From Myxococcales bacterium (GTDB taxonomy: Bacteria > Myxococcota_A > Polyangia > Polyangiales > Houyiibacteriaceae): DNA of 64,000 nucleotides. Positions 5,338-64,000 of the stretch are shown in pieces. The position numbers were made by a program, and so were the translations under genes. The DNA is taken from assembly GCA_019637115.1 (NCBI GenBank), contig JAHBWH010000004.1:1-64000 (forward strand), read 5' to 3'. A model generated the notes under the pieces. The model was not told where the DNA came from. It saw only the letters and a list, made by a program, of their open reading frames with translations, and searched no databases. Each line of letters starts with the position of its first letter. Within the stretch, counting starts at the first letter, position 1.

Positions 5338-8300
5338 ATGGCACTCGCTGTCAACTCTCGAGTCTGGCTCACCTTCGTCCTCTTGCTCGGCGCTGGCGCG
5401 TCGACCTCGCGGGCGGAGGACTGGCCCGTCTTCCGACACGACGCGCGACGCACCGCCCAGTCGAACGCGCGTCTCGGCATCGATCGCCCCGCCATCCGCT
5501 TCCAGACGTACCTCGGGGGCGCGCTCGGCCGGTTGCAGGTGCTCGATCTCGACGTGACGGGAGACGGTCGACACGAAGTGGTCTACGTCTCGGGTGGGCG
5601 CGTGGTCGCCAAGCGCGGCAACAACATCGCGGTGTGGGAGTCCGAGATCCTCCCGATCGACGAGCTCTGGGGAGCCGTCGATCTCGACGGCGACGGCGAC
5701 GTCGAGCTGATCGCCACTCGGACTCGCCCCGTGCCCGCCGCGCTCGTGATCTTGTCGGCCCGCGACGGCTCGGTGCGTTGGCAGATGCCGCTCGGCACGA
5801 CAGATTGGTTTCAGCGCGTCGCGCTCGGCGACCTCGACGGGGACGGTCGCGACGACCTCTACATCGGCTCGGGGATGTGCGGGACGGGCGTCGAGGGGCC
5901 GCCCGGTGTGGCGTTCTCGTTCTGCGACGCCGCGGGCTGCGACTTCGGTCGCGCGCGAGAGCTGTGGCGGCTCGTGCCCGGCACGCCCGCCGGCGACGCC
6001 GGCAACTGCGGGAGCTCGGGCGTCATCGCCGACCTCACGGGGGACGGGCGACAAGAGCTGATGATCCCCTTCGAGTACCAGCGCGTCCCCTTCTACGCGG
6101 GCGCGTCCGGCACCAGGCTCGGCGCCCTGCCGCCCTTCGAGCACGACTACGACCGGAGCTCCGTCACCGTCCTCCCCGTGCAGCTCGATGACGACCCGGC
6201 GCTCGAGGTCGTCTCGTACGTCAACGCGTTCAACGGGGGCCGAGGCGGGCGGCGCCTCGCCGTGCACGACCTCGTCGCGGGCGATTACACGACCCTCTGG
6301 GAGGTCTGGATGCCCGACCGCGCCGGCGACCGAGTCGTCGCCGACCTCCCCGGCAGCGTGCGAGATCTCGACGGCGACGGGCGCCCCGAGGTCGTCGTCG
6401 GTCGTTTCGAGGCCTCGACCGGGCGATGGACGACGACCGTGCACCACCCCCTCACCGGGGCCGTGCGAGCGAGCCTCGAGGCGCAGCTCCAGGGGGTCGT
6501 CGACGTCGACGGCGACGGTCGCGCCGAGATCTTCGCGACCGCGGCCGGTCGTTTGCGCGCGTACCGCTTCGACGCGGCGGGGACGCTGGAAGAACGCTTC
6601 GCGCTCGAAGCCCGCGGGGTCGTGAGGGTCGACGACGCGGCGCGTCGCCCCCGCACGTTGGCGTCGACGCGAGTCTTCACCATGCAGCTCGACGACGATC
6701 CGGCGCCGGAGCTCGTGCTCGGCGAGTGGGGGACCGGCGGGCTCGTCGCGTTGCACGCCTACGACGCCGACGTCGCCCCGCCCGTGCTCCGAGCGAGCTT
6801 TCGCGCCCCCGAAGGCACGACCATCCTCGCGGCCCTCGAGCTCGGACCGGTGACGCGGGACCACGCGCAGCCAGGCGTTGTGACGAGCGACGGCTACTTC
6901 CTGGTGCTCGACCGGAACCTGAACGTGACCAATCGAATCACGGATGGCGAGTTCACCGAGCCCGGGATGCGCGTCGGCGGGTACTACACCGGCGCGAGCG
7001 GACTGCGGGCCGCACCGATCGTCGCGACGCTCTCGGATGGCCCCGCCGTGCTCGTCTCCGACAGCCGAGGTGCGCTGCTCCGCTTCGACGCCCGCGCCGC
7101 GAGCCCGATCGAGGCTCCGGTCGTTCGGGACGCGCTCTTCGGGGCTCGTTTCCCGAGCGTCGTCGAGCTCGCGGGCGAGCGCGGGGTGCTCGTCGTGGAG
7201 GGGACGACGGTCGCGCTTCGAGAGGCTGGGCCCGGGCTCGGACTCCGGTGGCGCTCTCCCCCCATCGTCGACGCTGGCATCTTCGGTGACGCCGTCCCCG
7301 CGAGCCTAGTCGGCGGCGCGCCCAGCGTCGTGGGGAGCGCGCATCAGCCGACCGGCGATTGGCTCGCCTACGCGATCGACGCGGGGACGGGCGCGCTTCG
7401 TTGGCGGACCCCCACGCCACGGCTGCTCGGCTGGGGCGTCGGGAACAACGGGTTGCACGCCGTCGGCGACGTCACGGGGGACGGGGTCGACGACGTGACG
7501 AGCGTAGTGAACGGCGTGAGCCTCGTGAACGGCGCCGACCCCACCGACGTGCGCCACGTGGGCGGCTTCATGGCGCGCGGAGCGACGCTCTTGAGCCAGA
7601 TTGACGGAGCGGGCCCGCTCGCCATCTACGCGCACGGGGCCTATCACCCCTCCACGCTCGTTCGCGACGGCGCCGTCGAGTGGACCTTCGAGCCTCGGAT
7701 GGCGCTCGACTCCTTTGCCGCGCGAGCGACGTGCGCTGGCGAGACCGTCTTCGTCGGAGGGGCGTTCGGGAGCGCGGAGCTGTGGACGGTGCGCGGGCGT
7801 GACGCCTCCGTGCTCGCCCACCGGGCGTTCGCTGGAGGCGCGGACTTCGTGCCTGGCACGATCCCCGCTTCGGTGAGACCCGGCGCGCTCGGGAACGTGA
7901 CCTCCGTGGCCGGTGTCGACGGCGCGGGCCGCGCGGGGGTGCTCGTCGGTTCGAGCGATGGCCACCTCTACGCCCTCGACCCTTGCACGCTCACGCTGCG
8001 GTGGGCGCTCGATCTGCGGTACCCCGTCGGAGAGGCCGTGCCAGCGGACGTGGACGGCGACGGTGTGGACGAGATCGTCGTCAGCGTCGCCGACGGAAAC
8101 CTCTACGGCATCACGAACGCCGCCTACGACGCACCAAACGTCCGCGACATCGTGCCTGGCATGCCCGACGTGGACGTCGACGTCATCGACTCGGTGAGCT
8201 CACTCCACGCTGCGTGGGACCCGGTCGAGGGGGCGAGCTCCTACCTCGTCTCGGCCTTCACGGAGCAGGGGTCGCCGCTTCGATTCCCGAACGCGCGCGA

Positions 8301-8988
8301 CGTCGGCGACGTGACGGTCGTCGAGCTCGCGGGTCTGCCGCTCCAACCTGGGCGACGATACTACGTCGCCGTTCAAGCCGTGGGACCTGCGGGACCCGGC
8401 CTCGAGGGGCGCTCCGACGGTGTGCTCGTCGACGACGTCTCCCCGGCGGACGCGATGATCTCCGTCGAGCCCGCGGTGTCGTGGCCTGCCGGTGGGGTCG
8501 AACCCACGATTCGCGCCTCATGCGTCGACGCCTTCGGCGTGCGTCGGCTGCAGCTGCTCGTTCGGCGAGGCGACGAGCCCATCGCGTGGCTCGCGTCCGA
8601 GGACGGCGCAGCCCGGCCGAACATCGGCGTGACGCACGCCTGGCGCGGGCTCGACGAGGTCGGCAACCCCGTTCCGGCAGGGGTGTACACGGCGCGGGTG
8701 GAGTGCCTCGACGCACGCGATCGCGAGTCGTTCGCGGAGGTCGACCTCACCCTCGACCCCGCGGCCGCAACACCAGGCGACGCCGGGGTGGGGGCCGACG
8801 CCGGGGCGGACTCGTCAGAGGGCGGCGGCTGCGGCTGTCGAACGCCCTCGGGCTCCTTCGCCGGAGGGTGGCTCTGGGTCTTGCTTTCGTTTGGGGCCCG
8901 GCATCGGAGGGCCTCCCGCCGGTGTCTCCCGCCAGCGAAACGACCGCTCAAGGCGCGACAGGGACCCACGCCAAGGCGAAGCGGGTGA
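5338..8988 (+). CDS. Secreted FG-GAP/VCBS beta-propeller protein with MYXO-CTERM-like tail
   Basis: 1216 residues with a signal peptide (LTFVLLLGAGASTSRA). At least eight calcium-binding-type FG-GAP/VCBS loops are visible, for example DLDGDGDVE, DLDGDGRDD, DLTGDGRQE, DVDGDGRAE and DVDGDGVDE, spread through residues 70-950 as in integrin-alpha-type propellers. Around residues 945-1045 there is a fibronectin type III-like domain (AAWDPVEGASSYLVSAF, YYVAVQAVGPAG). The C-terminus has an Asp/Ala/Gly linker, a GGCGCR cysteine motif, a hydrophobic stretch (GGWLWVLLSFGA) and HRRASRR. This matches the MYXO-CTERM surface-sorting layout, so the protein is probably surface-exposed. After the Arg cluster another 20 residues run 41 bp into the convergent ATPase gene, which is longer than usual for such tails. 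Substrate unknown. Confidence 0.85.
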   Translation: MALAVNSRVWLTFVLLLGAGASTSRAEDWPVFRHDARRTAQSNARLGIDRPAIRFQTYLGGALGRLQVLDLDVTGDGRHEVVYVSGGRVVAKRGNNIAVWESEILPIDELWGAVDLDGDGDVELIATRTRPVPAALVILSARDGSVRWQMPLGTTDWFQRVALGDLDGDGRDDLYIGSGMCGTGVEGPPGVAFSFCDAAGCDFGRARELWRLVPGTPAGDAGNCGSSGVIADLTGDGRQELMIPFEYQRVPFYAGASGTRLGALPPFEHDYDRSSVTVLPVQLDDDPALEVVSYVNAFNGGRGGRRLAVHDLVAGDYTTLWEVWMPDRAGDRVVADLPGSVRDLDGDGRPEVVVGRFEASTGRWTTTVHHPLTGAVRASLEAQLQGVVDVDGDGRAEIFATAAGRLRAYRFDAAGTLEERFALEARGVVRVDDAARRPRTLASTRVFTMQLDDDPAPELVLGEWGTGGLVALHAYDADVAPPVLRASFRAPEGTTILAALELGPVTRDHAQPGVVTSDGYFLVLDRNLNVTNRITDGEFTEPGMRVGGYYTGASGLRAAPIVATLSDGPAVLVSDSRGALLRFDARAASPIEAPVVRDALFGARFPSVVELAGERGVLVVEGTTVALREAGPGLGLRWRSPPIVDAGIFGDAVPASLVGGAPSVVGSAHQPTGDWLAYAIDAGTGALRWRTPTPRLLGWGVGNNGLHAVGDVTGDGVDDVTSVVNGVSLVNGADPTDVRHVGGFMARGATLLSQIDGAGPLAIYAHGAYHPSTLVRDGAVEWTFEPRMALDSFAARATCAGETVFVGGAFGSAELWTVRGRDASVLAHRAFAGGADFVPGTIPASVRPGALGNVTSVAGVDGAGRAGVLVGSSDGHLYALDPCTLTLRWALDLRYPVGEAVPADVDGDGVDEIVVSVADGNLYGITNAAYDAPNVRDIVPGMPDVDVDVIDSVSSLHAAWDPVEGASSYLVSAFTEQGSPLRFPNARDVGDVTVVELAGLPLQPGRRYYVAVQAVGPAGPGLEGRSDGVLVDDVSPADAMISVEPAVSWPAGGVEPTIRASCVDAFGVRRLQLLVRRGDEPIAWLASEDGAARPNIGVTHAWRGLDEVGNPVPAGVYTARVECLDARDRESFAEVDLTLDPAAATPGDAGVGADAGADSSEGGGCGCRTPSGSFAGGWLWVLLSFGARHRRASRRCLPPAKRPLKARQGPTPRRSG

Positions 8989-10423
8989 CGCGCAGGTCGC
9001 CCTTGCGGGGGGGCACGGCGATGGCCTCGATGGCGGGGACGACGTCCGCGGCGCGTTGCGCCTCGAGCTCGTCTGACATCTCGGCTTCGAGGGCCGCGAG
9101 CTTCTCGCGCGCCTCCGCGAGCTGCGCCTCGGCGCGCGCGAGCGTCGAGCCTCGCTGTGAGACGCGGCCGGCCTTCCGCGCCGTGGTTGCGGCGCGGCTC
9201 GCGTGGCCGCGCGCAGTGCCACCCCCGAAGACCGCGCCGAGCACCGTCGTGCCGACGCCGAGCGCCGCGTCGAGCTGGGCAGAGCGCGCTTGGCCTCGCT
9301 CGCGCGCGACGCGCTCTTCGGCGCGCCGCACCTCGCCGCGCCCCCGCTCGAGGCGCTGCGTCCAGCGCTCGCGGAGCCTCCCGACCTCCCGGTCACGGCG
9401 CTCGCGCGCGTCTTGTCGCACGCGCGCGACCAGCTCGTCGTAGCCCTCTCCCGGTCTCGAGTAGAGCTTCGTCTCCGCGAGGACCTCGCCGAGCAGGCGC
9501 GTGAGGAAGAACATTCGCTCGACGTCCGAGAGGTGCGCGATGGACAAGATGGAGACGCGCGGTTTGCCTTCAGGCGTGTAGAGCAGGCGCTGCACGTCGA
9601 GCGGCTCGCCCTCGAGCCACGCCGCGAAGCCGGGGTTCGCGAGCACCGCGTTCAGGCGCATCGCGAGCGCTTGGCGGTCCTTGGCGGGGAAGAACGACTC
9701 GAGGTCCAGCACGCCGACACGCGCGAAGGGCGGCTCGAGCACGGCGCGGACGAGGCCGCCGAGGTCGAGCGAGCGACCGCCGCTCCAAGCGTGGTGCAGG
9801 AGGTTGGCGAGGAAGACGTGCTCGCGGGATTGGATGGGGTCGGCGTCGACGCCGAGGAGCGCCAAGAGCGAGCTCACGGCCGCATCGACGGCCTCGCGCA
9901 GAGACTCGGCGTCGGCGCTCTTCGGCGCGTCGAGCGAGCGGATGACGGCGAGCGGTCTGCCGGCGCTCGAGCCGGGGGTGTAGAGGGCGAGCTCTGCGGC
10001 GTCGCGGAGGCGCGCGATCCGGGCGCCGTCTTGGCCCCATTGCGCGAGGCCTTCGCGCCATTGCTTCGCGACGTCTCGGGCGCGCTCGGCGACCGACTGA
10101 CCTCGGCGCGCGGCCTCCGCGACGTCGATCCATGGCTCGAAGTCGTCCGGCGCGAGCGACGGAAAGGTCAAGAGCAGGTTGCCGAGGTCACCTTTGGGGT
10201 CGATGCAGATCGCCGGCACGCCGTCGATGGCCGCTTCCTCGAGGAGCGAGACACACAAGCCGGTCTTGCCGCTGCCGGTCATGCCGACGCAGAAGGCGTG
10301 CGTGGTGAGATCGCGCGAGTCGTAGAGGAGCGGCGGCCCGGTCGGTGCGCTGGTCTCGGGGTCGAGGGTGCGGCCGAGGTAGAAGGCGCCGAGGTGCTCG
10401 TAGTCCGCGGGGCTCGGGATCAT
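8948..10423 (-). CDS. HerA/DUF853-like ATPase lacking the Walker B block
   Basis: 491 residues. Residues 1-330 match the N-terminal part of the HerA-like family often annotated DUF853 or ATP-binding protein: Walker A GMTGSGKT at 47-54, IDPKGDLGN, and ILSIAHLSDVERMFF. The last 140 residues match that family's C-terminal coiled coil (RERRDREVGRLRERW, glycine-rich GVGTTVLGAVFGGG, and PRKGDL...LAWVP at the end). From memory, members run to about 800 residues, with a central block holding Walker B (LLYMDE-like) and the sensor region. Here the chain goes straight from LLGEVLAE to LYSRPGEGYDELV, so that block appears absent. No stop or frameshift was seen, so the frame is intact. It follows the metallophosphoesterase gene by 40 bp and is probably co-transcribed with it. 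Confidence 0.75.
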   Translation of the reverse strand: MIPSPADYEHLGAFYLGRTLDPETSAPTGPPLLYDSRDLTTHAFCVGMTGSGKTGLCVSLLEEAAIDGVPAICIDPKGDLGNLLLTFPSLAPDDFEPWIDVAEAARRGQSVAERARDVAKQWREGLAQWGQDGARIARLRDAAELALYTPGSSAGRPLAVIRSLDAPKSADAESLREAVDAAVSSLLALLGVDADPIQSREHVFLANLLHHAWSGGRSLDLGGLVRAVLEPPFARVGVLDLESFFPAKDRQALAMRLNAVLANPGFAAWLEGEPLDVQRLLYTPEGKPRVSILSIAHLSDVERMFFLTRLLGEVLAETKLYSRPGEGYDELVARVRQDARERRDREVGRLRERWTQRLERGRGEVRRAEERVARERGQARSAQLDAALGVGTTVLGAVFGGGTARGHASRAATTARKAGRVSQRGSTLARAEAQLAEAREKLAALEAEMSDELEAQRAADVVPAIEAIAVPPRKGDLRVTRFALAWVPVAP

Positions 10424-10463
10424 CGGCCGGACGATAGCAGCGTTCGGCGAAGAGCTCGGCCTC

Positions 10464-12170
10464 TCAGCCGTGCCCTCGGGCGCCGACGGCGAGGCGCCTC
10501 GGCTCTCGTCGACGCGCGCGGGCCCGTGCGAACGCCCGCGGGCTCGTGGGGACGTCCAGCTTCGGGGCCGCGGCGGCGACGTCCTCGAGCGGCCAATGCA
10601 GCCGCAGCACGGTGCGGGCGGGACAGTCCTCGAGCCGAACGATCACGGCGCCGTCATCACGTTCGATGGGCAGCACGGTCTGTTGGCCGCTCCCGGCGTC
10701 GGTCGCGCTCGCGAAGACGTCGCGGGTCGGGAGCCCGATCGCGCGTAGCTCGGCCCGCGCGCAGCGGTAGCGCACCAGCAGCTCGACGTGGCCGTAGGGG
10801 GCCGCGTTCCCGCGCTGCGATCGGAGCGCTTCGGCGTGGGTACGGTACGCGCCGGCCTCGAGGAGATAGCGCGTGGGCTCGAAGCCGAGGGAGAGGTCGT
10901 GCGGGGTGTCCACCGCGATCCCGCGGACGAACGCGGCGCCTCCGGCGAGCGGTGCGAGGGTCTCCACGTAGTGGGGCACGCGAGCGTCGAGATCGGGCGT
11001 GAGGCGTCGCTCGATGGCGAGGTCCCAGCGCCCCGGTCGTCGTGAGCGCTCGAGCCGCACGGACATCACGTCGGCCGCGAGCTTCGGTCCGCGCTCGCGT
11101 GGGCCGCGCGGGACCGGCACCACGCGCCACTGGCTCCCGCTCCGCGCCGCCCAGACGAGCGGCGTGGTCTCGACCTCTCCTCGCGAGCGGCCTTTCCATC
11201 CGAAGGCCGCGGTCTCGATCGCGACGCTGTCGGGCTCGAGCTCGACGACGTTGAAGCTAGGCCAGACGCGGGCGGATCGGTGAGTGGCCGCCCGCCGCAC
11301 GCTGCTCGCGGTGCCTGCGCTCCCTGCGGAGGCGATGAGCACGTCGCCTTGCGCCGCGACGGTGGCGTCGAGCGAGCGCGCTGTCGCGTTGTGCTTGTGG
11401 CCGTGGAGGACCAGGACCGCGCGCCCGAGGTCGTGGAGCGCGGTCAACGCCGAGCCGGCGCCGAGGGCCGTCATCATCCACTCTTCGTGGTCGGCGTGCG
11501 CGAGCAAACGCGGCAGCACCTCGGTGACGCCCCAGCGGACGAGGCTCGAGCGTTCGCCCGCGTCGATGGGGTCGGTGTCGGTGAGCGGCGTGGGGACGAG
11601 GTGATGGTGAAGCAAGACGAGGATCGGCCAGTCGGGTTGGTGTCGCCCAATCTGCGCCGCGACGTGCAGGAGATCCTCACGGCGGAGGGTGCCTCCCGCC
11701 CCGAGGAGCCCGCGGGGTAGAAACGTCGAGTCGTAGGCGACGAGCCAGAAGGGCTGTCGGTGGAGCGTGTGCGGGACGACTCGGGCCAAGAAGGGGGAGC
11801 CGTCCAAGGCGCCGTGGACGAAGACGCCTCGTGGCGCGTTCGCGGCGAAGGCGCTCCAGAGCTCGCTCCGATGAGGGCCGACGAGGCCGCCCACGCGGCG
11901 GTCGTGGTTGCCCGGCACGACCGCGAAGGGGGTCGGCGCGCCGAGCGCCTCGGTGAGCGCCTCGTGGAGCCGACAGAACGCCGAGAGCGCGTGCGGCATG
12001 TCGAGCGCCGCACTCTCGAAGACGTCCCCCGAGATCACGACGAGGTCGACGTTCCGCCCGCGCTGCGCGCGCTCACGCGCCACGGCCGCGGCGAGGGCGT
12101 CGAGGATCTCCGGCTGCTCGCCACGCCCGGCGCCGAGGTGGAGATCGCTGAGGTGGAAGAGGACGGACAC
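10464..12170 (-). CDS. Calcineurin-like metallophosphoesterase
   Basis: 568 residues, cytoplasmic. Metal-binding motifs appear in the usual order: D9-L-H11 near the N-terminus, VVISGDVF, VVPGNHDRR, LLHHHL and LHGHKH. These place it in the calcineurin-like/CpdA class of two-metal phosphoesterases. The catalytic domain takes about the first 290 residues. The remaining 280 are an unrecognised C-terminal domain with strand-rich segments, probably a substrate or partner domain. It is the first gene of a two-gene minus-strand run with the truncated HerA-like ATPase. Nuclease-plus-HerA pairs (Mre11 or NurA with HerA) are known in DNA end processing, but the sequence does not show that this enzyme is a nuclease. 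Confidence 0.85.
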   Translation of the reverse strand: MSVLFHLSDLHLGAGRGEQPEILDALAAAVARERAQRGRNVDLVVISGDVFESAALDMPHALSAFCRLHEALTEALGAPTPFAVVPGNHDRRVGGLVGPHRSELWSAFAANAPRGVFVHGALDGSPFLARVVPHTLHRQPFWLVAYDSTFLPRGLLGAGGTLRREDLLHVAAQIGRHQPDWPILVLLHHHLVPTPLTDTDPIDAGERSSLVRWGVTEVLPRLLAHADHEEWMMTALGAGSALTALHDLGRAVLVLHGHKHNATARSLDATVAAQGDVLIASAGSAGTASSVRRAATHRSARVWPSFNVVELEPDSVAIETAAFGWKGRSRGEVETTPLVWAARSGSQWRVVPVPRGPRERGPKLAADVMSVRLERSRRPGRWDLAIERRLTPDLDARVPHYVETLAPLAGGAAFVRGIAVDTPHDLSLGFEPTRYLLEAGAYRTHAEALRSQRGNAAPYGHVELLVRYRCARAELRAIGLPTRDVFASATDAGSGQQTVLPIERDDGAVIVRLEDCPARTVLRLHWPLEDVAAAAPKLDVPTSPRAFARARARRREPRRLAVGARGHG

Positions 12171-55820: not shown

Positions 55821-56111
55821 ATGCGGGCCCGCAGATCCGCGTGGCTGAATCGGGACTTCGTTCGGTCCGCGTTGGCGTGCGGCGAGGGAACGCTTTCGGA
55901 CGTCGGCCCGCGCGCGCTCGACGTCGAGATCGCCAAAGACCCCGACGACATCCCCCACGTCCTCGCCTGCGAAGGACCTGTTCGCGTCCCGCGACCCCCC
56001 ACGACACTGCACTTCAGGGCCTCGTCCAGGGCATTTGTCTTCTCTTCGGTTGAACGCCCACCGTCGCGACACGCCGCTCCGTCTGCTCCGACCCGTTTGG
56101 CGCCTCGGTGA
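55821..56111 (+). CDS. Doubtful small ORF, possible gene remnant
   Basis: 96 codons from ATG 55821. The first 55 residues look protein-like, with mixed codons (SAWLNRDFVRSALACGEG, ALDVEIAKDPDDIPHVLAC). The rest is Pro/Arg/Ser-rich and looks non-coding. There is no clear Shine-Dalgarno. The frame is also open upstream to 55566 with a poor sequence. I read it as a fragment of a lost gene at the island edge. No family is recognised. Confidence 0.25.
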   Translation: MRARRSAWLNRDFVRSALACGEGTLSDVGPRALDVEIAKDPDDIPHVLACEGPVRVPRPPTTLHFRASSRAFVFSSVERPPSRHAAPSAPTRLAPR

Positions 56112-56206
56112 CGTGTCTCGTGCGGAGCACGTGGGCTCCTCGGAGCCGGCCCTCGTGGTTTGGTGAGCCAGTCTCACGGCACCTCGCGAGCAAATTCTCG
56201 AGTCGA

Positions 56207-56290
56207 GCCTGGTTGTTTCGGGCAGTTCGGATGTCCTATCATCCGATCCGCCGCCTCGGCTACGGCAGCCCGCTCGACGCCGCCCACATC
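56207..56290 (+). mobile_element. Possible decayed IS3-family transposase C-terminus
   Basis: The frame reads RAWLFRAVRMSYHPIRRLGY and then GSPLDAA. IS3-type OrfB transposases end in a pattern like F-x-x-I-x-x-F-Y-N-P-x-R-R-H-S-x-L-G-Y-x-S-P-x-x-F. The fit is good except that the H-S-x triplet is missing, and no catalytic DDE region or inverted repeats were found nearby. If correct, an insertion sequence once sat at the edge of the defence island. Confidence 0.4.
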
Positions 56291-56596
56291 CCTCCGGAGT
56301 GGCCCCGGAGAGGTCGGTGCCGGGAGCGCGGGCTAAACCCTCGGCAAGCTCCCCACGTTCAGGACTTCCGCAGCATCACATAGACGCTACCGCCGAGTTC
56401 CGCGACGATCTCTTCCTGGCGCGTGACGGACTGATGTTGGCGCACGGTCTACAGCATATGCACGGCGCATCGACTCGCGGCGGGTTCCAGAGCCTCGACG
56501 AACGATGGCGGGTGCAAGTGTCGGGGGCCTTTGGTAGCATCACCCCCTTGAGCGCGCGCGATCAGCGAGCGCTCTGGTCGGACCCAGCAGACTGAC

Positions 56597-57823
56597 ATGC
56601 GACCTCGAACCAGCGATTCTCCTCGCGAAGAGCAACACGCGCTGCCCCCCATGCCTTCTCCGACTCAGGCCTCGGACGTAAACGCGACCACCGTAGCATG
56701 CGTGGATCTGTTCTGCGGGGCGGGAGGACTCACCCATGGATTGATCTCCGCGGGTGTGAAGGTGGTAGCAGGAGTCGACTTCGACTCGGCGTGCAAGCAT
56801 CCATACGAGACCAACCACCCCGGGCTCGTCTTCCACGAAGCCGACGTCGCCGAGCTCGATGCAGAAGTGGTCGCCGGGTGGTTCGGAGACGCATCGGTTC
56901 GAGTCCTCGCGGGTTGTGCACCGTGCCAGCCGTTCTCGAACTACGCGCTGCGCTATCAGAAGGAAGAAGACGGGAAGAACGTCGAGGACGACGAGCGCTG
57001 GAGTCTCCTCAACCACTTCGCATCGTTGGTCGAAGCGCTGATGCCCGACATCGTGACGATGGAGAACGTGCCGAGCGTCAGGAAGCACGCGGTCTTCCAG
57101 AAATTCCACGCAACCCTGGTTCGTCTCGGCTACCACGTCTGGCACGACGTGGTCGACTGCAGCCAGTACGGGCTTCCTCAGCGCCGCCAGCGCACCGTGC
57201 TCTTGGCGTCTCGACATGGCGAGATCGCTCTGCGTGCGCCCGACGCCACCGAGCCGCGGACAGTGGCCGACGTCATCAAGGGGCTGCCTCCGCTGCGTCA
57301 AGGCTGCCAATCCGCTACGGATCCGCTGCACACGGCGTCACGTCTCTCGCCGTTGAACCTGCGCCGAATCAAGGTCTCGAAGCCTGGCGGGACCTGGCGG
57401 GATTGGCCCCCCGAGCTCGTTGCCGAGTGTCATCAGAAGAAGACCGGCAAGAGCTACCCGGGGGTCTACGGCCGAATGTCGTACGAGGAGCCGGCCCCCA
57501 CGCTCACCACGCAGTTCTACGGCTTCGGAAGCGGTCGCTTCGGTCATCCGACGCAAGCACGTGGCATCTCGTTGCGTGAAGGTGCGCTGCTCCAAGGGTT
57601 TCCGGAGAACTACTCGTTCCTCCCCGAAGGGGAGCCGATCCGCTTCAAGGCACTCGGTCGGATGATCGGGAACGCCGTCCCGGTGGATCTGGGGCGCGCC
57701 ATCGGCGAGAGCATCATGGCGCATGTGGAGGGCTGGTCGTCGAAGGCGTCGACCTCCGACCCGAGCGAGAACCGAGAGGGGCGGGGTGGGTCGAAGCGGC
57801 GGAGTCGAAGCGTCGTCTCCTGA
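56597..57823 (+). CDS. C5-cytosine DNA methyltransferase
   Basis: 408 residues from ATG 56597; ATG 56651 is possible. Motifs are in canonical order: I DLFCGAGGLTHG (37-48), IV GCAPCQPFS with catalytic C110, VI ENVPSV, VIII QYGLPQRRQR, and X GRMIGNAVPVDLGRAIGESI. The target-recognition region between VIII and IX is short (HQKKTGKSYPGVYG), so the recognition site is probably small. It heads a four-gene operon with a Vsr-like endonuclease 13 bp later, then a DrmD-like helicase and an N6-adenine methyltransferase. It may protect host DNA within a DISARM-like system or form a Dcm/Vsr pair that travels with it. Codon use is less GC-biased than the core genes to the left. Confidence 0.95.
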   Translation: MRPRTSDSPREEQHALPPMPSPTQASDVNATTVACVDLFCGAGGLTHGLISAGVKVVAGVDFDSACKHPYETNHPGLVFHEADVAELDAEVVAGWFGDASVRVLAGCAPCQPFSNYALRYQKEEDGKNVEDDERWSLLNHFASLVEALMPDIVTMENVPSVRKHAVFQKFHATLVRLGYHVWHDVVDCSQYGLPQRRQRTVLLASRHGEIALRAPDATEPRTVADVIKGLPPLRQGCQSATDPLHTASRLSPLNLRRIKVSKPGGTWRDWPPELVAECHQKKTGKSYPGVYGRMSYEEPAPTLTTQFYGFGSGRFGHPTQARGISLREGALLQGFPENYSFLPEGEPIRFKALGRMIGNAVPVDLGRAIGESIMAHVEGWSSKASTSDPSENREGRGGSKRRSRSVVS

Positions 57824-57836
57824 AGCGAGACTTCGC

Positions 57837-58226
57837 ATGCAGCGAGTCCGACGGGCCGACACTTCGGCCGAGTCGGCGCTTCGTCGCGCGCTCCACGCAC
57901 GTGGACTCCGATACCGCGTCCAAGTCCCACTCCTCGCCAAGCCTCGACGTGTCGCCGACGTCGCGTTCAGCGGGCTTCGGATCGCCGTGTTCGTCGATGG
58001 GTGCTTCTGGCACGGGTGTCCGTTGCACGCGACGTGGCCGAAGCGGAACGCTGAGTTTTGGCGGGCCAAGATCCTCGCCAACCAGGCGCGTGACCGCGAC
58101 ACCGACGCGCGTCTCCGCGCGGATGGTTGGGATGTCATCCGCGTGTGGGCGCACGAGGACCCCGAAGTCGCCGCGGAACGGATCGCGAAGGCCGTCGAGG
58201 CCCGAAGGGAAGGTAGATCGGGATGA
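57837..58226 (+). CDS. vsr: Very-short-patch repair endonuclease (Vsr)
   Basis: 129 residues from ATG 57837. Vsr hallmarks are all visible: DTSAESALRRALHARGLRYR at the start, ADVAFSGLRIAVFVDGCFWHGC (catalytic Asp/His region), KRNAEFWRAKILANQARD, and LRADGWDVIRVWAHED near the end. The enzyme nicks at T:G mismatches made by deamination of 5-methylcytosine, which fits the C5-methyltransferase gene just upstream. Its stop overlaps the helicase ATG (ATGA), so it is co-translated with a defence helicase rather than only with the methyltransferase. Vsr-fold enzymes can also act as restriction nucleases. Confidence 0.93.
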   Translation: MQRVRRADTSAESALRRALHARGLRYRVQVPLLAKPRRVADVAFSGLRIAVFVDGCFWHGCPLHATWPKRNAEFWRAKILANQARDRDTDARLRADGWDVIRVWAHEDPEVAAERIAKAVEARREGRSG

Positions 58227-61200
58227 GCGAGGGCAGCATGGTGTCGGCTTCCCCCGAGCCGGGACAGCTCGTCGAAGTGAGACGACGTCAGTGGATGGTC
58301 TCCGACGTCGACGCGTCGTCGGTCTCGCCCGAGCTCCGTCGACAGAGCCTGGTGAAGCTCGCGTCGATCGACGAGGACGCGCTCGGTGAAGAGATCGAGG
58401 TGGTGTGGGAACTCGAGCCCGGCGCCCACGTCATCGAACGCGCCGGGTTGCCGACGCTCTCGACGCTCGACGACCCTTCGACACTCGACGCATTCCTCGA
58501 TGCCGTCCGTTGGGGCGCGGCGACCAATGCGGATCGGGGATACCTCCAAGCCCCGTTCCGAAGCGGCGCCAGCATCGAGGACTACCAGCTCGATCCACTC
58601 GTCCGCGCGATCGACATGGCGCGAACCAACCTGTTGATCGCGGACGACGTCGGCCTCGGCAAGACGATCGAGGCAGGGCTCGTGATCCAGGAGATGCTCC
58701 TGCGGCACCGCGCGCGCACCGTCCTCGTGCTCTGCCCCGCCTCCCTCCAGGAAAAGTGGCGAGTCGAGATGGCCGAGAAGTTCGGACTCGAGTTTCGCAT
58801 CGTGGACACCGAGTTCGTGAAGCGACTCCGCCGCGAGCGAGGCGTCCACGCGAACCCGTGGACGGCCTTCCCCCGGCTCATCGCTTCCATCGATTGGGCC
58901 AAGCAGGGGGAGGGCATGCGTCTGCTCCGCGACGTGCTTCCGCCCCACCCTACGTACTCCCGCCGTTTCGACATGCTCGTGATCGACGAGGCGCACAACG
59001 TGGCGCCAACCGTGGGTCGGTACGCCCTGGAGAGTCTGCGCACGCGCCTCGTGCGTCTCGTCGCGCCGCATTACCAACACAAGCTCTTCCTCACGGCCAC
59101 ACCACACGACGGTTACACCGAGTCGTTCACGGCACTCCTGGAACTGCTCGACGATCAGCGATTCTCGCGCAACGTGCTCCCACCCGAGGATCAACTCGCG
59201 CGCGTGATGGTGCGCCGCCTGAAAAGCGACCTCGTCGACGCCGACGGGAAGAAGCTCTACCCGGTGCGGCGGCTCGAAGCGTTGAACGTCGAGTACACCG
59301 ACGACGAGCGCGCGGCGCGCAAACTCCTCGACGAGTACATCGCAAGCCGCGAGGCCCAAGACGACCGGGCGGGGATCGCCTCGCACTTCGTCCACCAGCT
59401 CCTCCGCAAGCGTCTCGCATCGTCTCCCGCAGCGTTCGGTTCGACGCTCGCGCGCCACGTCGCGACCCTCGAAGGACGCGTAGAGAAGCTCCGCGCCTCG
59501 CGGCTGGACGAGCGCATCCTGCGTCGTGCGATCTCGAAGTCCGAAGAGGACTACGCCGACGACGACAGCCGCGAGACCGCGGAAGTCGAGGCCATCGAAG
59601 AGGCGAGCCGTCGTCTTCGGCCACTCTCCGACGCGGAGAAGAAGCTCCTCGCGCGGCTCCGGTCATGGGCCGAGGTAGCGGGCCACAAGCCCGACTCGAA
59701 GGCGGCCTCGCTCCTCCGCTGGCTCGAAGCGACACTCCGACCGGGAGGGCACTGGTCCAAGACACGCGTCATCCTCTTCACCGAGTATCGCGCGACGCAG
59801 AAGTGGCTCCAGGAGATCCTTGCGAGCCACGGCTTCGGCGCCTCGCGCCTCGCGCTACTCTTCGGAGGCATGGACCCCAAGGAGCGCGAGTCGATCAAAG
59901 CTGCGTTCCAGGCGGACCCGAGTGAATCACCGGTGCGCATCCTGCTGGCGACCGACGCAGCATCCGAAGGCATCGATCTGCAGAACCACTGCAACCTACT
60001 GGTGCACGTAGAGATTCCCTACAACCCCAACGTGATGGAGCAGCGGAACGGCCGCGTCGATCGTCACGGGCAGAAGCAGAGCGAGGTCGTCATCTACCAT
60101 CCCGTCGACAGCGACGGCGGTCACGGCGACGACATTCTCCGCGCCCTGCGCAAGCTCGACCTGATGAGAGCCGACATGGGCAGCGTGAATCCCGTGATCG
60201 CCCCGCAGCTGCCCGCGTTGCTCGAAGGGCGCCGCCGTGAGCTCGACACGCGAGCCGCCGAACAGCGTATCGATCGAGCGCGCCGCTACGTGAAGGCAGA
60301 GCGAGAGCTGCGAGAGCGCATCGCCAAGCTGCATGATCGGCTGACGACGACGCGCGGTGAGCAGCACCTCACGCCCGATCGCATCGAGCGCGTCGTGCGC
60401 GTCGCCCTGGCGCTCGCCGATAAACCCGATTTGACGCCCGCCAACCTCGCGGGTGTCTCGGACGTACCCGTCTTTCGCATGCCCGCGCTCTCCGGTTCGT
60501 GGTCCCGATGCCTGGATGGACTCGAACATCCGTTCACGAAACGGGTCCGCCCGATCACGTTCGACCATGACGTGGCGAAGGGCCGCGACGACGTGGTGCT
60601 GGTGCACCTGAACCACCCCCTCGTCCAGATGAGCCTGCGAGTGTTGCGAGCCGAGGTGTGGGCGCGCGACGACGTGAAGAAGCTCAGTCGTGTGACCGCG
60701 CGGATGCTGCCCGATGCGCGGCTCGACGGCCCGGCCGTCGTCGTCGTCTCACGTCTGGTGATCACGGGCGGCAACCACCATCGGCTCCACGAAGAGCTGA
60801 CGGAGGCGGGTGGCTACCTTCGCGACACTAGCTTCAGGCGTGAAGACCGCGTCGGTGAGCTTCGCGGCTGGCTCGATGATTCGAAACCAGCGGTGATCCC
60901 CGACCCCCTCTTCGACGCACTGCGGACCCGATTCGAGAAGCATACCGGGGCAGTGCTGAACGCCGTCGGCGCTCGGTCGAAGGAACGATTGAAGGGACTC
61001 GGATCCACGCTCGACGCTCGCAAGCGGAAGGAGGTCGACGAGATGAGCCAGCTGCTCGACGACCTCGCGACCAACCTCCGGGCCGAGCTCGACAAAGAAG
61101 AGCCGAAGCAGCTCTCGCTCTTCTCGGAGGACGAGCGCACACAGCTCCGACGCGACCGACTCGCGCTCGAGGCCCGCTTGCGACGCATTCCGGAGGAGCG

Positions 61201-61315
61201 CGAACGTGAGCGGCTGGCCATCGAAGCGCGTCACGAAGGGTTGGCCGATCATACCTTCCCGGTGGCCGTGGTCCTCTTGGTGCCCGAAACGCTCGCTGCA
61301 GGGAGGCCGTCGTGA
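58223..61315 (+). CDS. drmD: SNF2-family helicase, DISARM DrmD-like
   Basis: 1030 residues, ATG overlapping the vsr stop. The SNF2/helicase core has Walker A ADDVGLGKTIEAGL (K147), VLCPASLQEKW, DEAH box VIDEAHN (255-258), LFLTATPHDGY (motif III), and the C-terminal RecA lobe with VILFTEYRATQKWL, LLATDAASEGIDLQ and EQRNGRVDRHGQ. About 400 further residues form a helical C-terminal region. Size, start pattern (PGQLVEVRRRQWMV) and gene order with a large adenine methyltransferase match DrmD of class 1 DISARM. The next gene overlaps its stop (GTGA). The assignment to DISARM rather than another SNF2-methyltransferase system is inference. Confidence 0.85.
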   Translation: MSEGSMVSASPEPGQLVEVRRRQWMVSDVDASSVSPELRRQSLVKLASIDEDALGEEIEVVWELEPGAHVIERAGLPTLSTLDDPSTLDAFLDAVRWGAATNADRGYLQAPFRSGASIEDYQLDPLVRAIDMARTNLLIADDVGLGKTIEAGLVIQEMLLRHRARTVLVLCPASLQEKWRVEMAEKFGLEFRIVDTEFVKRLRRERGVHANPWTAFPRLIASIDWAKQGEGMRLLRDVLPPHPTYSRRFDMLVIDEAHNVAPTVGRYALESLRTRLVRLVAPHYQHKLFLTATPHDGYTESFTALLELLDDQRFSRNVLPPEDQLARVMVRRLKSDLVDADGKKLYPVRRLEALNVEYTDDERAARKLLDEYIASREAQDDRAGIASHFVHQLLRKRLASSPAAFGSTLARHVATLEGRVEKLRASRLDERILRRAISKSEEDYADDDSRETAEVEAIEEASRRLRPLSDAEKKLLARLRSWAEVAGHKPDSKAASLLRWLEATLRPGGHWSKTRVILFTEYRATQKWLQEILASHGFGASRLALLFGGMDPKERESIKAAFQADPSESPVRILLATDAASEGIDLQNHCNLLVHVEIPYNPNVMEQRNGRVDRHGQKQSEVVIYHPVDSDGGHGDDILRALRKLDLMRADMGSVNPVIAPQLPALLEGRRRELDTRAAEQRIDRARRYVKAERELRERIAKLHDRLTTTRGEQHLTPDRIERVVRVALALADKPDLTPANLAGVSDVPVFRMPALSGSWSRCLDGLEHPFTKRVRPITFDHDVAKGRDDVVLVHLNHPLVQMSLRVLRAEVWARDDVKKLSRVTARMLPDARLDGPAVVVVSRLVITGGNHHRLHEELTEAGGYLRDTSFRREDRVGELRGWLDDSKPAVIPDPLFDALRTRFEKHTGAVLNAVGARSKERLKGLGSTLDARKRKEVDEMSQLLDDLATNLRAELDKEEPKQLSLFSEDERTQLRRDRLALEARLRRIPEERERERLAIEARHEGLADHTFPVAVVLLVPETLAAGRPS

Positions 61316-64000
61316 GCGCACGGTTCGAGTGGCTGAATCTGGTTGAGGTCTCGGGACCGTTCCTCGCGATTCCCGTCCTACGCGAGGTCTTCCCGCAGGG
61401 GCTCGAGGAGCTCGACGCGACTCGCGCCAAGCGCCTTCGCAGCGCCTACGAGGAGTGGCGGGATGCGGTGGATGGCGACGACGCCGGGCGGGAGGAGTTG
61501 CACGCTGCGTGGATCGACGAAGTGCTGCGCACCGCGCTCGATGCTGACGACCCGATGGTGAAGACCGGGGCCGAAGTTCCTGCGGCATCGGCGGAGCTGC
61601 CGGAACACGGCGTGACCATCGTGCCCGAGCGGGTGCTGGTCGACCCCACGCACGGCGGCGCCGTACTGGCCCCCATCCATGTCTTCCCGCCCGACACCGA
61701 CTTGTCGGCGACACGGAAGTTCGAGGGGCTCTCGAGCTCGCCGGAAGACCGGATGGTCTCGCACCTACGTGCACTGAACCTTCCCTTCGGCGTCGTGACC
61801 AATGGCGAACGTTGGATGCTCGTGCACGCGCCCTCGGGCCAGGTGACGACCTTCGCCAGTTGGTACGCCCGGCTCTGGGGACAGGAACCCGAGACGCTCC
61901 GCGCGTTCGTATCGCTCCTCGGCGTGCGCCGGTTCTTCGCGCCGGAGGATGACCGCCTCCCGGCGCTCTTCACCCGCTCGATGAAGCACCAAGACGAGGT
62001 CGCCGACGCGCTCGGCGACCAGGTCCGGCGGGCCATCGAAGTCTTGGTCCAAGCACTCGACCGGGCGGACCAGGATCGGAACCGTGAGCTCCTCCACGAC
62101 GTGAAGCCTCGAGACCTCTACGAGGCGGGCCTCACCGTGATGATGCGGCTCGTGTTCCTCCTGGCAGCGGAGGAGCGCGGACTCTTGCTCCTCGGGGAGC
62201 CGCGCTACGACGCCTTCTACGCGGTCTCGACGTTGCGGATGCAGCTCCGCGCGGAGACCGACGAGATCCTCGAGCGCCGCCGCTCGGCATGGTCACGGCT
62301 GCTCGCGACCTTCCGGGGCGTGTTCGGCGGCATCGACCATCCCACGTTGCGACTCCCCGCGATGGGTGGCTCGCTCTTCGATCCGGATCGTTTCCCGTTC
62401 CTCGAGGGGCGCCTGAAGGGCACGTCTTGGCGAAGCCACCGCGCGGAGCCCCTACCGATCGACGACCGCACGGTCTTGTTGCTCCTCGAAGCCATCCAGA
62501 CCTTCGAGGGGCGCACGCTCTCGTATCGAGCGCTCGACGTGGAACAGATCGGTCACGTCTACGAAGGTCTGCTCGAACGCACCGTCGAGCGCGTCGCCGA
62601 CGTGACGCTCGAGCTCGACGCGAGCACCTCGGCCAAAGACGCGCGCGTCACGCTCGGCGAGCTCGAGTCGGCACGACTCGATGGGAAGGCGAGCGTCACG
62701 GAGCTCCTCGTCGAGCGCACGAAGCGTTCGAAGTCGGCGATCGCGAAGGCGTTGGCTGCGGAGGTCGAGCCCATTCGGAGCGCGCGCCTCCTGTCCGTCT
62801 GTCGTGGTGACGTGAAGCTCCGCGACCGACTCGAGCCCTACGTGCGCCTCCTACGCACCGACCCTTGGGGCTATCCGCTGGTCCACCCGAAGGGCGCGTT
62901 CGTCGTCGTGCTCGGGACCGACCGGCGCGAGACCGGCACGCACTACACGCCGAAGAGCCTCACCGAGCGCATCGTCGAAGAGACGTTGACGCCGCTCGTC
63001 TACGAAGGCCCAGCGACCGGTACACCGCGCAGCGAGTGGAAGCTGAAGACGCCTGAAGAGCTGCTCGACCTGAAGGTTTGCGACCCGGCAATGGGCTCGG
63101 GCGCATTCCTAGTGCAGGCGTGCCGCTTCTTGAGCGCCCGACTGATCGAGTCCTGGGCAATCGAGGAGGCCGCTGGACGCATCGTCGACCTCACTGGCAA
63201 GACCCATGACCCGAGCACCAACGTCGAGACCATGTCGTTCGGTGAGGAGGTGCGTGCCGAGAACGCGCGGCGCATCGTGGCAGAGCGCTGCCTCTACGGC
63301 GTCGACCTGAACCCGCTCGCCGTCGAGTTGGCGAAGCTGTCGCTGTGGCTCGTCACGCTGTCGAAGGGGCGACCGTTCGGCTTCCTTGACCACAACCTCC
63401 GCCAGGGGGACAGCTTGCTCGGCATCAGCCGGCTCGAACAGCTCACGGACCTGTCGATGACTCCGAAGAGGCAGACACAACGACGACTCTTTGGAGAAAG
63501 CGTTCGGTATAGCGTCCGGACGGCCCTGGCCATTCGCCTCCAGCTACGTGAGATGCCCATCCGCGACATTCGAGACGTGGAGGCTATGGCAACGCTCGAC
63601 GCCGCTGCGCGACAGAAGCTCGACGTCTCCGACGAGCTGGCGAATGCGTTCATTGCGGCGGTGTTCGCAGCTGAGAGCGACCGCGTGCTCGAGTCACGGC
63701 TGGCGGGCTTCGCCGTGGAAGCCGACCGGATCTCGGAGGGCAACGAGGAGGACCTGAAATCGCTGCGGTGTCGTGCGGCATCCGACTTGACCATCGACTC
63801 CCCCAGTGGGGCTCCGCGGACACCATTTCACTGGCCGCTCGAGTTCCCCGAGGTGTTTCATCGCCCCGACGCTGGGTTCGACGCGATCGTTGGTAATCCG
63901 CCGTTCATGGGCGGACGCATCCTCGGTCGACGGCTCGGGATGGTCTACCAGGAGTATCTGAAGACCATCCGAAACAACGTTGTCGGCTCTCCAGACCTTT
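61312..64000 (+). CDS. drmMI: N6-adenine DNA methyltransferase, DISARM DrmMI-like (partial, runs off right edge)
   Basis: At least 896 codons from GTG 61312, overlapping the helicase stop; no stop before the window end. The N-terminal 580 residues include FEWLNLVEVSGPFLAIPVLR, a nuclease-like or helical region (MVSHLRALNLPFGVVTNGER) and the IGHVYEGLLER segment typical of Eco57I/type IIG-like methylases. SAM motif I is VCDPAMGSGAFLVQ (D591) and catalytic motif IV is NPPF (N862). The motif region NPLAVELAKLSLWL lies between them. It methylates adenine and in DISARM marks host DNA as self. The rest of the gene and any drmA, drmB and drmC lie beyond the edge. Confidence 0.88.
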   Translation, partial: MSARFEWLNLVEVSGPFLAIPVLREVFPQGLEELDATRAKRLRSAYEEWRDAVDGDDAGREELHAAWIDEVLRTALDADDPMVKTGAEVPAASAELPEHGVTIVPERVLVDPTHGGAVLAPIHVFPPDTDLSATRKFEGLSSSPEDRMVSHLRALNLPFGVVTNGERWMLVHAPSGQVTTFASWYARLWGQEPETLRAFVSLLGVRRFFAPEDDRLPALFTRSMKHQDEVADALGDQVRRAIEVLVQALDRADQDRNRELLHDVKPRDLYEAGLTVMMRLVFLLAAEERGLLLLGEPRYDAFYAVSTLRMQLRAETDEILERRRSAWSRLLATFRGVFGGIDHPTLRLPAMGGSLFDPDRFPFLEGRLKGTSWRSHRAEPLPIDDRTVLLLLEAIQTFEGRTLSYRALDVEQIGHVYEGLLERTVERVADVTLELDASTSAKDARVTLGELESARLDGKASVTELLVERTKRSKSAIAKALAAEVEPIRSARLLSVCRGDVKLRDRLEPYVRLLRTDPWGYPLVHPKGAFVVVLGTDRRETGTHYTPKSLTERIVEETLTPLVYEGPATGTPRSEWKLKTPEELLDLKVCDPAMGSGAFLVQACRFLSARLIESWAIEEAAGRIVDLTGKTHDPSTNVETMSFGEEVRAENARRIVAERCLYGVDLNPLAVELAKLSLWLVTLSKGRPFGFLDHNLRQGDSLLGISRLEQLTDLSMTPKRQTQRRLFGESVRYSVRTALAIRLQLREMPIRDIRDVEAMATLDAAARQKLDVSDELANAFIAAVFAAESDRVLESRLAGFAVEADRISEGNEEDLKSLRCRAASDLTIDSPSGAPRTPFHWPLEFPEVFHRPDAGFDAIVGNPPFMGGRILGRRLGMVYQEYLKTIRNNVVGSPDL

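Follow-up and report, generated by a model that had tools for sequence, protein, structure and literature searches.

The window, a stretch of 64,000 nucleotides, ends within a complete class 1 DISARM operon whose genes continue beyond it. Overall, we consider it probable that the system belongs to a clade bearing a C5-cytosine methylase, that its Vsr endonuclease repairs 5-methylcytosine (5mC) damage, and that its drmMI-drmA junction carries exchangeable cargo. The DISARM core is ordinary, and the novelty of the locus is mostly gone, since class 1 systems with both methylase types are already known. The less ordinary part is the vsr gene, a recurrent and seemingly undescribed variant; no report of Vsr in DISARM was found in the literature library that we searched.

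Gene content and class assignment

The initial annotation described positions 56597-64000 as a DISARM-like operon of four coupled genes, encoding a C5 methylase, Vsr, a DrmD-like helicase and a DrmMI-like adenine methylase. All four open reading frames are in place, and the DISARM call was right. The window corresponds to positions 1-64000 of a contig that runs on to 107,786 bp, and on this extension drmA, drmB (DUF1998) and drmC (PLD) follow downstream, making the locus a complete class 1 DISARM rather than one that is DISARM-like. Beyond the window all operon genes keep one orientation and the same coupled chain, up to the last gene, drmC (Table 1). Neighbouring genes mostly share 1 to 8 nt, as in the ATGA of vsr/drmD (58223-58226) and the GTGA of drmD/drmMI (61312-61315), both reported previously; a 298-bp gap separates Methyltransf_35 from PDC-M65A. 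The base-composition shift that had been claimed is real: at 50-56 kb GC is about 0.73-0.76, between 56 and 79 kb it drops to 0.58-0.68, and across most of 79-94 kb it is back at 0.70-0.77, so the entire operon is compositionally foreign. The leader was searched for a sigma-70-type promoter and an intrinsic terminator, with no match.

Table 1. Features of the DISARM locus; contig and window coordinates are the same
Feature	Coordinates	Strand	Family or model
Intergenic leader before operon	56008..56596	.	
C5-cytosine DNA methylase, DrmMII-type, 408 aa, first gene	56597..57823	+	PF00145, PADLOC DrmMII
Vsr endonuclease, 146 aa	57786..58226	+	PF03852, TIGR00632
DrmD, SNF2-like helicase, 1030 aa	58223..61315	+	NF038317 DISARM_DrmD
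DrmMI adenine methylase, 1359 aa (window stops at 64000)	61312..65391	+	PADLOC DrmMI
GHKL ATPase (beyond window)	65388-66845	+	
Methyltransf_35 (beyond window)	about 66842-67798	+	
PDC-M65A (beyond window)	68097-69254	+	
PDC-M65B (beyond window)	69257-71485	+	
213-aa ORF, no family match (beyond window)	71482-72123	+	
drmA (beyond window)	72116-76096	+	
drmB (beyond window)	76093-77931	+	DUF1998
drmC (beyond window)	77931-78689	+	PLD

The first gene product matches Pfam DNA_methylase (PF00145, 5.2e-52) and PADLOC DrmMII (4.8e-90) and contains the motifs FCGAGG, PCQ, ENV, QRRQR and GNAV; an alternative start is the ATG at 56651. Vsr scores above the cut-off of TIGR00632 (106.7 bits) and matches PF03852 (1.5e-15). 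Starting vsr at its first ATG (57723) would give 167 aa and a 101-nt overlap with the C5 methylase gene. This start was dropped in favour of the GTG at 57786, which gives a 38-nt overlap, because a close relative in another genome (G116) agrees with it in both length and overlap. DrmD reaches 1360 bits on NCBIfam NF038317 (cut-off 610) and carries GLGKT and DEAH motifs. A PADLOC model named DrmA, PDLC02572, scores best on this DrmD (1555 vs 1439 bits) and looks mislabelled. DrmMI, with NPPF at residue 862, scores 1709 bits on the PADLOC DrmMI model and a higher 1894 on the type IIG model, and NCBI names a relative MmeI-like; the name DrmMI is therefore a convention.

The downstream core proteins all score above their NCBIfam cut-offs: DrmA with DISARM_DrmAS (1460 bits), DrmB with DrmB_fam (731 bits) and DrmC with DISARM_DrmC_I (236 bits), the models for DrmD, DrmA and DrmC being equivalogs and that for DrmB being at family level. 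The PADLOC rule for type I DISARM asks for DrmA, B, C, D and MI together with the absence of DrmE, and DrmE was not found among the PADLOC matches listed for the 12 operon proteins (the best 25 for some). Class 2 combines DrmMII with DrmE and lacks DrmD. The locus resembles class 2 in having drmABC and a DrmMII-type C5 methylase, but differs from it in having DrmD and DrmMI, with no DrmE found.

The presence of both methylase types had been put forward as a mixed class 1/class 2 architecture. This is true as a description, but it is not new, and we have dropped the claim: the class 1 DISARM operon of Serratia sp. SCBI has a C5 as well as an N6-adenine methylase, the former being treated as a DISARM part (PMC9142583), so the prototype itself already shows the mixed architecture, and the clade with an upstream C5 methylase is large. 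The likeness extends to the proteins, with DrmA and DrmB matching Serratia DrmAB (structures 7S9V/7S9W) from end to end (1726 bits for DrmA and 998 for DrmB, against 7S9V). The ATPase of Serratia DrmAB is damped by 5mC, and Bravo et al. propose valine V1296 as its methylation sensor (PMC9142583). This valine is kept in our DrmA, within MREVEPG; we placed it through an alignment with a Raoultella orthologue, counting residues backwards from the C-terminal end of the latter. The Raoultella DrmA itself scores 2460 bits against Serratia DrmA (7S9V), and its operon has the order C5 methylase-drmD-drmMI-drmA-drmB; unlike our locus, it lacks both Vsr and a cargo block between drmMI and drmA.

The C5 methylase clade and the role of Vsr

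A scan of genome contigs gave 80 loci, and the order C5 methylase-vsr-drmD-drmMI recurs in many genomes, which excludes chance as its source. It continues through cargo to drmA-drmB-drmC in two genomes sampled from the phylum, G116 and G052. Plasmid pR24_2 of Microvirga terrae (NZ_CP102847.1) has C5 methylase-vsr-drmD-drmMI-GHKL ATPase-O-methyltransferase-drmA-drmB-drmC, differing from our locus in lacking PDC-M65AB and the 213-aa ORF. Of the 96 sequences in our DrmD tree, 41 come from loci with a C5 methylase gene immediately upstream and 42 from loci without one, while 13 could not be scored. The 41 fall without exception into a single clade of 45 rows with 100% SH-aLRT support; the upstream methylase requires four changes on the tree, and Vsr eight. 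Of the 41 loci, 22 have Vsr between the methylase and drmD, against none of the 42 (Fisher p 3.5e-9, uncorrected for descent). Mantel correlations with DrmD, which partly reflect shared descent, are 0.74 for the C5 methylase and 0.86 for Vsr (p 0.0005 for both), and 0.83 for DrmMI. Separately, the genome from which the window comes carries a second, distant drmD-drmMI pair on contig C123 (L058:1977-10089).

By homology to the Serratia system, DrmMII (C5) and DrmMI (N6-adenine) would mark host DNA; DrmAB, restrained by its trigger loop, would load on unmethylated DNA that is single-stranded or has a 5'-overhang; and DrmAB, the DrmD translocase and the DrmC nuclease would block the invader. Vsr most likely nicks beside T:G mismatches that arise when 5mC made by DrmMII deaminates, through which the host would retain its marked sites and avoid mutation by its own mark. 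In Escherichia coli, Vsr repairs T:G at the sites that Dcm, encoded in the same operon, methylates (PMC12907096). Positions equivalent to E. coli E25, D51, H69, K89 and N93 are invariant in 24/24 relatives, and the position of H64 is Asp, as it is in the functional V.NgoAXIII and V.Nme18VIP. The C5 methylase recognition domain is similar in loci with and without Vsr, so the target motif is probably shared; our reading of this motif leans on the conserved recognition-domain sequence and on analogy with Serratia, whose specificity, if it holds here, would give a TCGA core.

The initial annotation had left open whether Vsr repairs damage from the C5 mark or serves as an effector nuclease. Its standing as a linked, recurrent component is supported, and its dependence on the C5 methylase (22/41 vs 0/42) favours repair, which, judging from sequence, is the likeliest role. 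A Vsr steered by DrmD or DrmAB to nick invading DNA seems improbable to us. The active site is intact and vsr is translationally coupled to drmD. The related YprA helicases of ARMADA carry fused nuclease domains of Vsr type, as do those of Druantia, where the domain is mostly inactivated (PMC12458937), and a Vsr-like domain is a predicted effector in type III-B CoCoNuTs. Against this, the operon already has DrmC, 19 of the 41 otherwise similar systems have no Vsr, and in the tree set Vsr stands beside drmD only together with a C5 methylase, which fits repair better. The same 19 systems, all with a C5 methylase, show that repair is not obligatory either.

Repair may also penalise methylase loss, and we gave some weight to the rather unlikely reading that Vsr mainly stabilises the operon, with loss of the C5 mark leading to double-strand breaks by Vsr and so to a penalty for cells that lose the methylase. 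Caulobacter VsrA behaves in this way, harming cells that lose cytosine methylation, for example on deletion of ScmA (PMC12907096), and Vsr loci in the tree set always have a C5 methylase. However, the effect in Caulobacter is regarded as a side effect of mismatch repair and hence is not separate from the repair explanation.

It is very unlikely that the C5 methylase and Vsr form an independent, solitary pair that happens to lie beside DISARM. Such pairs do occur alone and in other restriction-modification operons (PMC2292703), and their position can vary: a Deinococcus plasmid has both genes together at the 3' end of DISARM, the opposite end from ours, and one genome (G038) has a more distant C5 methylase with Vsr 3' of DISARM. 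Dcm-Vsr pairs and MORC/paraMORC operons resemble our locus in having a C5 methylase with linked Vsr and GHKL ATPases nearby (PMC2292703), but they have other SF2 helicases and are without drmABC and drmD. The overlapping reading frames, the fixed position across many genera and several phyla, the co-variation with DrmD and the treatment of the Serratia C5 methylase as a DISARM part (PMC9142583) all argue against independence. In a further genome, G141, only Vsr of the two lies at the 3' end of DISARM.

With repair as the preferred role, the recurring arrangement of Vsr beside the C5 methylase looks like built-in repair of methyl-mark damage. Should Vsr be a DISARM partner, this would be a restriction-type immunity that brings along an enzyme to mend the mutagenic damage from its self-mark, and this would explain how C5-based self-marking is tolerated.

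Exchangeable genes between drmMI and drmA

Other defence genes are exchanged at the drmMI-drmA junction, and since candidate systems recur there, it is a place to seek new ones. Many loci of the C5-methylase clade have no extra gene at this junction. In our locus the cargo is a recurrent pair, GHKL ATPase plus Methyltransf_35, followed by an insertion of the PADLOC candidate system PDC-M65. The pair is also present in L065, L068, L072, L093 and Microvirga, and elsewhere the junction holds a paraMORC-like GHKL ATPase, PDC-S39, a PifA/KAP ATPase, AspBHI-like 5mC-dependent restriction enzymes and others.

Both genes of PDC-M65 are present (M65A 1.2e-39, M65B 6.6e-101). PDC-M65B was ruled out as a DISARM component: in a sample of 269 genomes of the phylum, the genome of the window itself is the only one with a strong match, and relatives on plasmids occur outside DISARM, after an adjacent upstream ORF. 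The 213-aa ORF had no match in Pfam, PADLOC or plasmids.

A GHKL ATPase is found in 9/20 Vsr-bearing and 1/18 Vsr-lacking C5-methylase loci (Fisher p 0.009), a difference that is not significant on independent pairs, so a strict link between the two remains only a lead. We regard it as quite doubtful that Vsr and the MutL-like GHKL ATPase make up a MutL-Vsr-like module that marks or nicks C5-methylase sites and feeds the DrmAB/DrmD helicases, instead of plain repair. Our data suggest that the GHKL-Methyltransf_35 pair is a module linked to C5 methylases. On contig G086:C12 (L148, reverse strand, about 8093-11459), the pair forms a three-gene cluster with a divergent C5 methylase (GHKL ATPase-Methyltransf_35-C5 methylase), and the 20 kb read there hold no further DISARM gene.

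AspBHI-like 5mC-dependent restriction enzymes, one of them partial, lie inside DISARM operons at L072:20088-21293, L089:10572-11795 and L085:17183-17923. As they share these operons with a C5 methylase, they must target sequence contexts other than that of the self-mark.
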